The position numbers were made by a program, and so were the translations under genes. Shown one piece after another: positions 17,399 to 63,225 of a DNA stretch of 64,000 bases. How positions within the stretch are numbered: position 1 is the first letter of the stretch; each line of letters starts with the position of its first letter. The notes beneath the pieces are model-generated. The model was not told the DNA's origin. It ran no database searches and worked only from the letters and a program-made list of their open reading frames with translations. Location: NCBI GenBank assembly GCA_020975725.1, contig QXJR01000026.1:124001-188000 (forward strand), read 5' to 3'. Source of the DNA: Picocystis sp. L7 (taxonomy: Eukaryota > Chlorophyta > Picocystophyceae > Picocystales > Picocystaceae).

Positions 17399-17962
17399 AT
17401 GGCGACGCGGATGGCGAGCTTGGAAACGCGCAGCTGGGGATCCCGTGGGACGGTCGCAACTTCCAGGACGGTTCAGACGCGCATTCGTGCGTCGGTATCG
17501 AGGTTCCAGCCGAACTATTCTGCTTCGTTTCAATTCATTCGCGGCGTGGATGAACCGGTGCTTCCCGACGTGCGATTGATGCGCTCCAATCGTCCGTCGG
17601 AAGTATTTGCGGTGGCAACCTTTGTGTTTGAAAATCCAAGCCTCTTCCAGGACGAGTACTACCACGGTGATGCAGTTATCGAAGGACTGTACCTCGTCAA
17701 CGTGTTGCGAGGTGGCTGCGAGGACCTGATGTCGGATTGGTATTGGAGGAGTTGGCTGCGGGAACCACCTGGTGCAGACTATTTAGGACAAGCGGCATTC
17801 GTCCTCAAATGCGACCAGGACATCAAAGCTACGTTCAGGGACGGAAAACCGCACGCTGTCGAGGCAAAGTGCACCATCTACACAGCACTCGAGTACAAGA
17901 ACTTTGTGGAATTCATGGAGAAGTATGCAGTGGAACGTGGCATGGGATATGCCATACGCTAA
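17399..17962 (+). CDS. Psb28-like photosystem II assembly protein, divergent paralog with insertion
   Basis: Psb28 is a small stromal-side factor that binds assembling photosystem II (CP47/RC47 complexes). This gene encodes 187 residues with an Arg/Ser-rich plastid transit-like N-terminus. The Psb28 signature follows: FQFIRGVDEPVLPDVRL, ATFVFENPSLF, IEGLYLV, then KATFRDGKPHAVEAK and FVEFMEKYAVERGMGY. Between GLYLVN and DIKATF there are about 39 residues (17702-17818) with no counterpart in Psb28. The segment begins with GT, ends with AG, has no stop and is a multiple of three, so it may be a retained or mis-read intron; its donor (GTGTTG) is weak. It is distinct from the canonical copy at 32488-32946. 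AATAAA follows soon after the stop. Confidence 0.85.
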   Translation: MATRMASLETRSWGSRGTVATSRTVQTRIRASVSRFQPNYSASFQFIRGVDEPVLPDVRLMRSNRPSEVFAVATFVFENPSLFQDEYYHGDAVIEGLYLVNVLRGGCEDLMSDWYWRSWLREPPGADYLGQAAFVLKCDQDIKATFRDGKPHAVEAKCTIYTALEYKNFVEFMEKYAVERGMGYAIR

Positions 17963-19610: not shown

Positions 19611-20765
19611 TCAAACCATGCCGCTCTGGTTGATGTGGTTCCGGTCGGCGTATTCCACCATCTGGAAGTCGAGCATCTCGCTGGCCAAAGGATACGAGAG
19701 CAGCTCTTGGAAGGAAGCCACGCTGCCGCAACCACCGCCAGAGTGTAGGCGTGAGAGGCCCTGCAAGATGGCCGCCACGAAATGATCCCGACACGTGCGA
19801 TTCTGCGCGTACAGCTCCCGCACCACCGTCTTTCGTTGCAGGTCCGAAGCAGGTGGAGGAGGAGACGCACGACAGAACCAACGCATACCACGTTTCGTGC
19901 GTTCGAACGTGGCCGTCACACGGAACCCGTAAAGGGCGCTTCCATCGTCCATGTCTCGTGGGAGGCAAGTGCGAGACCTGGTCGAACGCTCCACGGGTTC
20001 CAGCGACACAATCATTCCATTCAATTCCCCGTCGTCCTTGATGCCCAGCCAGGCGAGCGGCTGGAACTCGATGTGCTTGAAGAACGGCTTCATCACATCC
20101 GCCTGGAGAGCGCTGTCGGAGAAACGGAGCTCGCCGAACTCGGTCACCACGAACCATTTGCGCACCAATCGTTGGCCTGGGAAGCAAGCCGACCTGGGCT
20201 TCGACACGAATAGGTAGCCTTGGTGGATCACTTGCACGAACGAATTCCCGCTCTCCTGTCGCACTCCCAGCTTCTCGAACACCGAAGCTGGGAAGCTTCC
20301 TTGCGACTTGAGTTTCTTTCGGATGCGGTGGACGGGTTTGCCATCAACCTTCTTGCTTTGGATCTCTTCTTTTCCTTCGTGTTCGTCCTTTTCGTGTTCG
20401 TGTTCCGGTCCGTGCTTAGTTTCGTCCCTCTTTTCCTTGTGCAGACGAGGTGAGATGCTTTTCGTGGCTCTAATGATGGGTTTTTTGATGGCATTTTCCG
20501 CCTTATGCAAGGTGGCAGGTAAGAATCCTCTGGACGTGAGCGAATGTCGCTTCGCCTTGACTTTCGTCTTGGCGTGTGGCACGTCACCGCTCCCTTCGCA
20601 CACCAGGTTCACCTTCAAATCTGCAGGCCACTCCATCCATTCCGCAGAGTTCTGACGCGAACGTGGTGTGAAGGGAAGCTCCTCTTCCGCCACCGCTTCT
20701 CCAGCACCTTCGGTGTCCGCAGAGGTCCCTGCCATCATCTTGCCGTCGTGCTCTGCTTCCTCCAT
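19611..20765 (-). CDS. Unknown protein with a PH-like region
   Basis: A 384-residue protein I cannot assign to a named family. The first 140 residues are charged and low in complexity, with a Lys/Glu/His-rich run around 110-140. From about 175 to 310 a segment (VIHQGYLFVSKPRSA, RKWFVVTEFGELRFSD, KHIEFQPLAWLGIKDD, YGFRVTATFERTKRGMRWF, then REL..HFVAAILQGL) looks like a pleckstrin-homology fold: beta strands with a conserved Trp in RKWFVV and a C-terminal helix. If so it may bind phosphoinositides or act as an adaptor. The upstream region is the pyrimidine-rich repeat shared with the divergent DDT/PHD gene. It is co-oriented with DLST, with 137 nt between them. Coding status is likely given the uninterrupted frame with low-GC-bias codons. 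Confidence 0.6.
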   Translation of the reverse strand: MEEAEHDGKMMAGTSADTEGAGEAVAEEELPFTPRSRQNSAEWMEWPADLKVNLVCEGSGDVPHAKTKVKAKRHSLTSRGFLPATLHKAENAIKKPIIRATKSISPRLHKEKRDETKHGPEHEHEKDEHEGKEEIQSKKVDGKPVHRIRKKLKSQGSFPASVFEKLGVRQESGNSFVQVIHQGYLFVSKPRSACFPGQRLVRKWFVVTEFGELRFSDSALQADVMKPFFKHIEFQPLAWLGIKDDGELNGMIVSLEPVERSTRSRTCLPRDMDDGSALYGFRVTATFERTKRGMRWFCRASPPPPASDLQRKTVVRELYAQNRTCRDHFVAAILQGLSRLHSGGGCGSVASFQELLSYPLASEMLDFQMVEYADRNHINQSGMV

Positions 20766-20767
20766 GG

Positions 20768-21085
20768 ACCCCTCCTCCCTCTCAGCCTCCCCTCCCTCAA
20801 CCTCTCTCCCTCTCAGCCTCCCTGTCCCTCCCTCCCTCTCTCAGCTTCCCTCCCTCAACCTCTCTCCCTCTCAGCCTTCCCTCCCTCAACCTCCCTCCCT
20901 CTCAGCCTCCCCTCCCTCAACCTCTCTCCCTCTCAGCCTTCCCTCCCTCAACCTCTCCCTCTCTCAGCCTCCCTCCCTCAACCTCTCCCTCTCTCAGCCT
21001 CGATCCCTCTCTCGACCTCCATCCCTCTCCCTGTCTCCCACCCTGGTTCCCTCTCACCCTCAGCCTCTGTCCTTCTGTACCTTTC
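20768..21085. repeat. Pyrimidine-rich minisatellite between divergent genes
   Basis: A run of imperfect tandem units built from CCTCCCTCAACCTCTCTC and CCCTCTCAGCCT, repeated about a dozen times and degenerating toward 21080. One strand is nearly all C/T. It lies 3 nt beyond the start codon of the PH-like gene and about 440 nt upstream of the DDT/PHD gene. Such tracts can form triplex or altered DNA or act as promoter elements; that is inference. The strand asymmetry keeps several reading frames open. Confidence 0.85.
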
Positions 21086-27280: not shown

Positions 27281-27302
27281 GACGCGTGATGGCGACGTGC
27301 GC

Positions 27303-27630
27303 CTTTCCTTCCCTTTTCCTTCGACTCGTCTCCCTTTCAAACCTTCCCTTTCCATCGGTACGACGCCCTTTCAAACCTTCCCTTTTCCTTCGACTCGTCT
27401 CCCTTTCAAACCTTCCCTTTCCATCGGTACGACGCCCTTTCAAACCTTCCCTTTTCCTTCGACTCGTCTCCCTTTCAAACCTTCCCTTTCCATCGGTACG
27501 ACGCCCTTTCAAACCTTCCCTTTTCCTTCGACTCGTCTCCCTTTCAAACCTTCCCTTTTCCTTCGACTCGTCTCCCTTTCAAACCTTCCCTTTCCATCGA
27601 TGCGACGCCCTTACAAACCTTTTCTTTCTG
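27303..27630. repeat. 69-bp tandem repeat upstream of malate dehydrogenase
   Basis: About four and a half copies of a 69-bp unit. Successive CCTTCGACTCG starts fall at 27318, 27387, 27456 and 27525, then a half-unit step to 27560. Each unit is itself two related half-units of about 34-35 bp sharing CCCTTTCAAACCTTCCCTTT. Because 69 is a multiple of three, several frames stay open across it on both strands; I regard those as shadows. Confidence 0.92.
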
Positions 27631-32487: not shown

Positions 32488-32946
32488 ATGGCGTGTGTGT
32501 CGATGCGCACCGCACGCGTCGCTGCGGCACGTGGAAGCGCATTTGCAGGCCGATCGACGGCTTTGCGTCGATGTGTGGGACGCAACGTGGCATCCACGAG
32601 GATGATGGCTGCGTCCTTGCAGTTCATTCGCGGTTTGGACGAGGAATCGGTCCCGGACGTGAAGCTCACCAGGTCGAGGGACGGCACGTCCGGCACCGCC
32701 ACCTTCGTGTTCGACGAACCGGCTGTCTTCGAGGCCACTGGCGAACTGGGAGACATCACCGGACTCTACATGGTGGATGACGAGGGAACGATCCAAACCG
32801 TGGACGTGCAAGCCAAGTTCATCAACGGTAAGCCTTCCAAGATCGAAGCCAAATACATCATGCGGAGCTCTGGAGATTGGAACCGGTTCATGCGCTTCAT
32901 GGAGAAGTATGCCGAGTCCAATGGACTCGGGTTCAATAAGGCATGA
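32488..32946 (+). CDS. psb28: Psb28 photosystem II assembly factor (canonical copy)
   Basis: The 152-residue precursor has an Ala/Arg/Ser-rich transit peptide of about 40 residues. The mature Psb28 sequence then runs with no gap: [88 protein letters not shown]. This is close to cyanobacterial and plant Psb28, which associates with CP47 during photosystem II assembly and repair. The start is the first ATG after an upstream GC-rich leader that includes the GGGGGGCAG element. No intron. It converges with the HSP70-like gene. Compare the diverged copy at 17399-17962. Confidence 0.96.
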
Positions 32947-40574: not shown

Positions 40575-41490
40575 ATGACGCACCGCGACGTTTCTTTCAA
40601 GGCCACGATGCGCCCGATGCGGGCCAAGGCCGCTACGAGAGTTGCACCTGTCAAGCGCGTCGTCGTTGCCAAGTGCTCCTCCGAAGCGTCTCCAGTGATG
40701 GAAGGTGCTCGCAAGGCAGCCACTGCGCTGGCCGTGGCCACGCTCGCCACGTCCGTCTCCTACGCAGATGTGGCACCGGCACACGCAGACGTCGCCGGAC
40801 TCACGCCTTGTTCCGAGTCCAAGCCTTACCAGAAGAGGCTCAAGAACGAAGTCAAGGCTCTCAACAAGCGCCTGAAGCAGGTGCGTTGTGCTTGATGCGA
40901 CCATCGGCGAAGACGCCTGCGGACAACCGACGGAACGAGGTGCTGACGACGGGTGTTTTGTTGTGCGAACTCGTCGGCTGGTAACACAACAGTACGAGCC
41001 CGGCTCAGCACCCGCCCTGGCTCTGGAAGCCTCCATTGCAAGGACCGAGACACGCTTTGCCAAGTATGCCAATGATGGCCTCCTTTGTGGTTCCGATGGT
41101 CTGCCACACCTGATCTCTGATCCTGGCCTGGCACTTCGATTCAACCATGCTGGAGATGTCTGGGTAAGTAGCGCGTTTGTGACAGCAAATGTAGGAATCG
41201 AGCACGGCGAGTTGATGATGGGTGGTCTCTGACGTTGGATTATTTGTGACGTGTAGATTCCCACCTGGCTGTTCCTTTACAGTGCAGGAGCGATTGGCTG
41301 GGTTGGTCGCGAGTACTTGATCAAGGCACGAGAGGCTGCCAAGCCTATGGACAAGGAAATCATCATCGATGTGCCATTGGCGCTGTCCGTTTTCTTCCAA
41401 GGGGCTGTCTGGCCTGTGCGCGCGTACGCTGCATGGAGGAATGGGACTCTGCTGGAGAAGGATGAGAACATCACCATCTCCCCACGCTAA
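40575..41490 (+). CDS. psaF: Photosystem I subunit III, PsaF
   Basis: Three exons: 40575-40880, 40993-41163, 41257-41490, with introns of 112 nt (donor GTGCGT) and 93 nt (donor GTAAGT), all phase 0. The 236-residue precursor has a bipartite targeting sequence. A basic stromal-import part comes first, then a hydrophobic thylakoid signal ([19 protein letters not shown]) ending in the AHA cleavage motif before [14 protein letters not shown]. The mature protein has the lysine-rich N-terminal helix ([17 protein letters not shown]) that docks plastocyanin in green organisms, [13 protein letters not shown], and the membrane helices in exon 3 ([39 protein letters not shown]). A TGTAA follows the stop by about 28 nt. 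Confidence 0.97.
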
Positions 41491-61369: not shown

Positions 61370-62050
61370 TCAGAGGTTGGGCTCAGACCGAATGTTCCTC
61401 CACGCTGTCCGCACCTTTGTGCCCACTCTTGCAGTCCACAGAGTGCTGACGATCAGGCAACAAAAGCCCGAGTAGGTGAAAACAATGGTAAACAACCAAC
61501 CAACTACGGAAAGACACCGGAATTTGATGGGTCCAGAAACATGGCAACCAGGTCTGTACATGCTGCTGCCTGGGGCTGACCAAACACCAGAGTCCTCCAG
61601 AAGGTGCCGCGTCAGGTCTGCCATCACAAGAGGCACAGAAAGCATGCATATGTACAGGGGTCCGAACCGTTGCCAGTGAGAGCCTTTCCTTCCCTTGGTT
61701 TTCCAGGCAATGTACTGGCATATGTTTGTCAGCACGGCCAGCGTCACACCAAACGAGATGGCGTGGCTGAGCGCCCTGGCCCCTTCCGAAGCAGCCACTC
61801 CTAGCAGTCCTGCCAGGAGCAAGGGCCAGCATCAGGATCCCACGAGCGCTGGGATGGAAATCAGCAGCGTTGCCACGGACGCCCACACTCCCGTGGTGTC
61901 CGCTTCCGACACCTGGCCGGCCTCTCCTTCGTCCGCAGCTGCGGCAGCACTCCTGCGCCTACGCCGCGGTCTCGGGGCTCATGCCGTCCCTTCGCACGTT
62001 TCTTCCAGCAGAGGCTCCTCCAGCGCGCTTTCCTCGTCGCGAGGAGCCAT
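61370..62050 (-). CDS. Candidate membrane selenoprotein with one in-frame TGA (Sec58)
   Basis: Inferred exons are 61998-62050 and 61370-61952, with a 45-nt intron (donor GTGCGA, acceptor GCGCAG) that removes an upstream in-frame TGA. The product is 211 residues: an acidic N-terminus with a dileucine-type motif (MAPRDEESALEEPLLEE), then hydrophobic VWASVATLLISIPALVGS, then TGA (61832-61834), then CWPLLLAGLLGVAASEGARA in the same frame. Further membrane segments follow (AISFGVTLAVLTNICQYIAW, RFGPLYICMLSVPLVMADL, SVVGWLFTIVFTYSGFCCLI) and a basic tail. The frame is hydrophobic and protein-like on both sides of the TGA, and no GT-AG intron I can find removes the TGA while keeping frame. A SECIS-like hairpin lies just downstream. 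I do not recognise the family. If the TGA is a true stop, the gene would be a short fragment or pseudogene. Confidence 0.6.
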
Positions 62051-62522: not shown

Positions 62523-63225
62523 ATGGAGGGGGTTGCGGTTCACAAACGAAAGGCAGAAGAGATGGACGAAGACGACTACGACGAAGAAGACCCGGCGAAG
62601 GAAGAGAGTGATGCACAGGCCCTGAAGAAAAAGCAGAAGGTGGAGGGAGAAGAAGCAGATGCTGGACAAGTTGGAGAAGAAAGGAAGCCGGCCAAGGCTC
62701 CCATGCTAGTGCCGAAAGATGCTCAAGATACTGATCGAACAATGGAAGAGAACCACGCCAACGAGACGCCAAAAGGACACCGCACCAAAAAGCAAACCAT
62801 GACCGAGTTTCAAGAGAGGAACAAGTGCGTGCCTGGCGACTTTGAGCTCGGATGGAGACGAATCTCCTTACACATCTTGACTGACATCGACAATGCAAAC
62901 GTAACACAGGAACGTTCTTGCGTTGTTCACCGACGAGCAAATGAACCGATACGAGAGTTTTCGTAGGTCTGCTTTTCAGAGGTCCACCATCCGAAAGATT
63001 CTCACAAGCATCACCGGGAACCCCGCCAGCTTGCCAATGACCATCGTGATGTGCGGCATTGCGAAACTGTTCGTGGGCGATCTGGTCGAAACGAGCAGAA
63101 TCGTGATGAGTGAGAGGGGGGACACAGGGCCCATTCAACCGGTCCATCTACGGGAAGCGTACGAGAGGTTAAGGTCTGCACGACAAATACCCATTCGAGG
63201 AAAGGTGCCACGTTTATTCAGATGA
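62523..63225 (+). CDS. TAF11: TAF11, TFIID subunit with histone fold
   Basis: Exons 62523-62824 and 62910-63225, with an 85-nt intron (donor GTGCGT, branch-like CTGAC, acceptor AACACAG), giving 205 residues. The N-terminal 95 residues are charged and acidic/basic mixed, as in other TAF11 proteins. The splice creates QERNK-NVLALFTDEQMNRY, which aligns with the human TAF11 lead into its histone fold. The fold is clear: RYESFRRSAFQRSTIRKILT, SITGNPASLPMTIVMCGIAK, LFVGDLVETSRIVM, then PIQPVHLREAYERLRSARQIP. TAF11 pairs with TAF13 in TFIID for RNA polymerase II initiation. It is divergent from the selenoprotein candidate and converges with the AlkB-like gene, with 33 nt between stops. Confidence 0.94.

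Follow-up and report, generated by a model that had tools for sequence, protein, structure and literature searches.

A candidate membrane selenoprotein gene of a green alga with two in-frame TGA codons and a SECIS match behind its stop codon

SELENOK, SELENOS, SELENOT and SELENOI are membrane-bound eukaryotic selenoproteins, and their selenocysteine (Sec) is placed outside the membrane core. VKOR and DsbB have a redox pair at or within a membrane helix bundle. MSP, predicted to be a membrane selenoprotein and reported to have two Sec residues, was described by Lobanov et al. in 2007 from Ostreococcus, Chlamydomonas, Volvox and Dictyostelium, and the same report lists SelK, SelS and SelT for Ostreococcus (PMC2375036). 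In a survey of 137 algal species, MSP was named among the families whose members almost all occur in the Sec form (PMC7539508). An MSP of O. tauri (ostta10g02090) is entered in a proteomics table together with its protein abundance (PMC8834552), and an MSP is listed for Volvox carteri (PMC6681478). The distance between UGA and SECIS is stated to range from 207 to 5207 nt in mammalian selenoproteins, and the minimum distance for Sec insertion in Dio1 is given as 51-111 nt (PMC3316567).

In this study, we analysed a 64-kb stretch of green algal DNA (the window) and examined a candidate selenoprotein gene on its minus strand. The features of the locus are listed below.

62050..61370, minus strand: coding frame of 226 codons from the ATG at 62050, with 2 in-frame TGAs, ending in the stop codon TGA at 61372-61370
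61981-61979, minus strand: TGA1, codon 24, in EGTA-TGA-APRPRRRRR; a second Sec codon, or removed with an intron of 39-48 nt
61834-61832, minus strand: TGA2, codon 73, midway through the first hydrophobic segment, IPALVGS-Sec-CWPLLLAG; the proposed main Sec codon
61372-61370, minus strand: terminator TGA, 44 nt upstream of the SECIS core
61335-61268, minus strand: putative SECIS element in the 3' UTR, matching Rfam SECIS_1 with 25.5 bits over model positions 1-64 of 64

The start codon lies in the context GCGATGG. The 226-codon frame holds exactly two internal stop codons, both TGA, and no frameshift is needed to read it. The preliminary description had placed TGA2 in a hydrophobic frame, IPALVGS-TGA-CWPLLLAGLLG, and its coordinates and peptide strings were correct. 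Translation of the frame also confirmed that the N-terminus, MAPRDEESALEEPLLEE, is in the same frame as the TGA2 region, and the C-terminal part is unbroken as claimed, the frame being open from TGA2 to the stop at 61372. The N-terminus had further been joined through a short intron. The same continuous frame was found there, but the intron was an assumption, and the break is the second in-frame TGA (61981-61979). The selenoprotein frame has no ATG from TGA1 to TGA2, and therefore Sec at both codons, splicing around TGA1 or an unusual start is required. The terminal TGA is followed by GTC TAA (61372-61364, minus strand), and readthrough would append Sec-Val at the C-terminus.

The SECIS_1 match lies on the coding strand and begins 34 nt past the stop codon; it was absent from the preliminary description. 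The AUGA (61325-61322), the AAA, the mini-stem and the 3' UGA were all in place. When 701 nt around the stop were compared with 4227 Rfam families, the match had an E-value of 0.013, and its score of 25.5 was below the Rfam gathering score of 35. When the whole 64 kb was searched against Rfam, its E-value was 1.2, which was the lowest among the 4227 families, with one further, weaker match at E ≤5. By our own arithmetic, the single-family expectation is 3e-6 for the 701 nt (0.013/4227) and 3e-4 for the 64 kb (1.2/4227). A control search of 8 bacterial loci totalling 64 kb gave 37 Rfam matches at E ≤10, none of which was SECIS. The predicted fold of the site showed the expected long helix, an apical loop with unpaired A residues and the mini-stem. 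Its fold energy was unexceptional (z -0.78), with 45 of 200 shuffles folding equally well. In a separate pattern-and-helix test, the site held the strongest helix in the window; with this cruder detector, 200 shuffles of the 64 kb gave 62 helices of equal strength, or 0.31 per shuffle. The distance to the SECIS core was 653 nt for TGA1, 506 nt for TGA2 and 44 nt for the terminator, and TGA2 thus has a candidate 3' UTR SECIS at a permitted distance. The terminal TGA as a third Sec codon (Sec-Val, then TAA) was held unlikely, and this codon could remain a stop, because 44 nt is below the Dio1 minimum of 51-111 nt as given in that source (PMC3316567).

We then compared TGA2 with the other TGAs of the window. 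Among 1790 TGAs on both strands of the 64 kb, 71 had at least 32 open codons before and at least 100 after them. TGA2 ranked 1st of these 71 by summed coding score, and it alone had a mean hydropathy of at least 1.5 on both sides. In the reference genes, the codon score had a median of 0.20 and a 5th percentile of 0.04 bits per codon, and the 95th percentiles of the two other frames were 0.14 and 0.12. The stretch directly before TGA2 (61930-61835) scored 0.30 bits per codon in frame, which falls within the reference-gene range and exceeds that of the other frames, the part from the ATG to TGA1 scored 0.34, and that from TGA1 to 61931 scored -0.06. The 153 codons after TGA2 scored 0.01 bits per codon, which is under the reference-gene 5th percentile, and one reverse-strand frame over this region scored 0.02, as high as the coding frame. 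Synonymous codon choice alone gave 0.07 after TGA2, equal to the reference-gene median, although this measure discriminates frames poorly (the next frame had 0.05). Since synonymous choice was at the median, amino-acid composition may be a cause of the low codon score in this region. TGA2 therefore lies in frame with coding sequence on both sides, though the codon score after it is weak. Genome-wide reassignment of TGA was rejected because TGA terminates 8 of the 15 reference stretches.

When Sec was treated as Cys, the hydropathy of the protein peaked at TGA2 (window centred on residue 71), and two hydropathy peaks reached at least 1.6. A single-sequence AlphaFold model of low confidence (mean pLDDT 57) contained four long helices at 49-86, 91-118, 125-153 and 173-222, which hint at a multi-pass protein. 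The product is probably a small multi-pass membrane protein of about 226 residues. A Foldseek search with this model (pLDDT 57) found no match at E 0.001. For residues 41-226, no Pfam family was found at E ≤10, in a search where the HMMER filters drop most matches above 0.1, and the NCBIfam search had no match. The best match among PDB sequences had an E-value of 0.15 and was to Sec61-type channels. No relative of residues 41-226 was found among viral contigs (9 pattern-matched stretches) or prokaryote genome contigs (121 pattern-matched stretches). Looser DNA patterns had 2, 7 and 1 matches in viral contigs and 86 in prokaryote genome contigs; tblastn against all 96 pattern-matched loci found none at E ≤1, and the best E-value in a smaller set of 9 loci was 0.31. 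Plasmid and phage collections gave no tblastn match at E 0.01. The viral, prokaryote, phage and plasmid collections thus gave no homologue that could show Sec or Cys at the TGA position, and a literature search by peptide strings found no paper.

The candidate differs from SELENOK, SELENOS, SELENOT and SELENOI in that residues 41-226 matched no Pfam family at E ≤10. VKOR and DsbB are an analogy of mechanism only; the candidate has a putative vicinal Sec-Cys where they have CxxC, and it has no Pfam match. The preliminary description had called the protein undescribed. This was not supported, as a membrane selenoprotein with two Sec residues, MSP, had been published in 2007 (PMC2375036). The candidate resembles MSP in being a predicted membrane protein of a green alga, with two in-frame TGAs, of which TGA1 may be intronic, against the two Sec residues of MSP. 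An A precedes the UGA in the SECIS found here, unlike the G reported for all O. tauri SECIS elements but one (PMC2375036). Because the Sec count, the membrane nature and the range of organisms all fit, MSP is by description the nearest family and the likeliest one. By that same comparison, the gene may belong to the MSP family.

Splicing was examined against introns of the window itself. A simple gene finder, which treats TGA as a stop by design, called 25 genes in the window, including 3 with an intron, of which one was doubtful (767 nt); it missed two introns that were spotted by eye and did not call the candidate selenoprotein gene. Genes for Rubisco activase and PsaF are both present in the window and mark it as DNA of a photosynthetic eukaryote, the PsaF gene at 40617-41400 (plus strand) carrying an intron of 112 nt. 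A gene with a TAFII28 (TAF11-like) domain at 62523-63225 (plus strand) is divergent from the selenoprotein gene, and short repeats of the type 'tgtggaccgtc' lie between the two. The supported introns, and one that could remove TGA1, are listed below.

5803: supported intron of 101 nt, donor GTACGT, from the gene finder
13721: supported intron of 104 nt, donor GTACGC, from the gene finder
40881-40992, plus strand: supported intron of the PsaF gene, 112 nt, CAG/GTGCGT..AACACAACAG/TAC; in the joined protein, the PF02507 match spans the junction
62825-62909, plus strand: supported intron of the TAFII28-domain gene, 85 nt, donor GTGCGT, leading into the TAFII28 domain
61997-61953, minus strand: possible intron over TGA1, 45 nt, AAC/GTGCGA..GGCGCAG/GAG, frame kept

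The four best supported introns all begin with GTRCGY (GTRCG core), and in 3 of the 4 a [CG]TRAC motif was read by eye near the acceptor. Their lengths rest on the gene finder and the by-eye joins, because an automatic scan placed other acceptors higher for 3 of the 4. In the selenoprotein frame, 282 introns of at least 30 nt would remove TGA2 (78 GT-AG and 204 GC-AG), and none resembled the supported introns. Nine of the 282 had a GTRCG donor; these all start at 61997 and are at least 222 nt long. Under 125 nt, there were 4 GT-AG and 9 GC-AG candidates. The short GT-AG candidates (105-120 nt) begin at 61880 or 61886 and remove most of the first hydrophobic segment. A fair-looking acceptor, CCTTGCTCCTGGCAG, ends at 61810 just past TGA2, and its sole in-frame partner under 125 nt was a GC donor that gives an intron of 108 nt. 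The gene has two [CG]TRAC-plus-AG arrangements (61732 and 61615), both well beyond TGA2, with 0.8 expected by density. Since the in-frame candidates are unlike the supported introns and the [CG]TRAC-plus-AG pairs come only after TGA2, TGA2 is very unlikely to be intronic.

TGA1 alone could be removed by 39 in-frame introns of at least 30 nt. The donor GTGCGA at 61997 gives 39 and 48 nt in-frame introns over TGA1 in addition to that of 45 nt, and a selenoprotein with one Sec, in which TGA2 is Sec and TGA1 lies inside such an intron of 39-48 nt, is a possible form of the preferred reading to which we give tentative weight. This donor, AAC/GTGCGA, shares its GTRCG core with the donors of the four best supported introns, excision preserves the frame and yields a smooth N-terminus, and the codon score from TGA1 to 61931 is low (-0.06). 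However, GTRCG is unremarkable as a donor, with 265 copies on both strands of the window, the three usable acceptors are without the [CG]TRAC motif found in 3 of the 4 supported introns, and 39-48 nt is atypically short next to 85, 101, 104 and 112 nt. A second Sec at codon 24 accounts for TGA1 as an alternative to the short intron, and if TGA2 is Sec, two Sec residues are reasonably likely.

Both TGAs would be lost if a single intron of 222 nt (61997-61776) were spliced from a membrane protein without Sec. The GTGCGA donor is shared and the frame is kept in this case, but the intron would delete the first hydrophobic segment, whose codon score is that of coding sequence, it is twice as long as the supported introns, and at its acceptor (61776) the [CG]TRAC motif is missing and the pyrimidine tract is poor (0.41). 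The SECIS match would also have to be a coincidence, and we regard such splicing as highly improbable. A pseudogene, a chance frame or an assembly error, with the TGAs as true stops or wrong bases, would agree with the weak codon score after TGA2 and with the lack of a homologue in the viral and prokaryote collections searched. Against this, the 226 codons hold no other stop and run without a frameshift, and the SECIS match is correct in place and strand; we see very little room for this explanation.

We consider it highly probable that TGA2 is read as Sec and that the gene encodes a selenoprotein. The claim of a green algal membrane selenoprotein was well supported, chiefly because a SECIS match lies at 61335-61268. 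Going by what is established for selenoproteins, the SECIS would be bound by SECIS-binding protein 2 and the Sec elongation factor. By the standard eukaryotic mechanism, Sec-tRNA would be delivered to the UGA of codon 73, which precedes the SECIS core by 506 nt, and the UGA of codon 24, 653 nt from the core, would probably be recoded as well; the terminal UGA, 44 nt from the core, would remain a stop. Sec73 adjoins Cys74 at the hydropathy peak, which suggests a membrane redox pair: the two residues in the first membrane segment might form a selenol/thiol pair able to close to a selenenylsulfide, and the protein could conceivably act as a membrane-embedded redox enzyme. It seems unlikely that this is an undescribed selenoprotein family in which one SECIS serves two UGAs 49 codons apart and an intramembrane selenol redox centre is present. 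Such a family would have one Sec in the basic N-terminal tail and the other beside Cys in the core of the first membrane segment, and its terminal UGA would be spared by nearness to the SECIS.

Other features of the window were also noted. No tRNA gene was found in the 64 kb. Repetitive open frames, for instance FPFPSTRLPFKPSLSIGTTPFQT and LSLPSLNLSPSQP, arise from tandem repeats at 20700-21000 and 27290-27600 (plus strand). Two short genes at 17530-17962 and 32602-32946 (plus strand) presumably are Psb28-like paralogues.

An annotation that reads TGA as a stop truncates or loses the candidate selenoprotein gene. If real, the gene would enlarge a group of unknown function by one membrane selenoprotein, in which two Sec residues are likely. 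It would also be a clear test case, with one SECIS at distances of 653, 506 and 44 nt from three UGAs, the nearest of which is expected to stay a stop.
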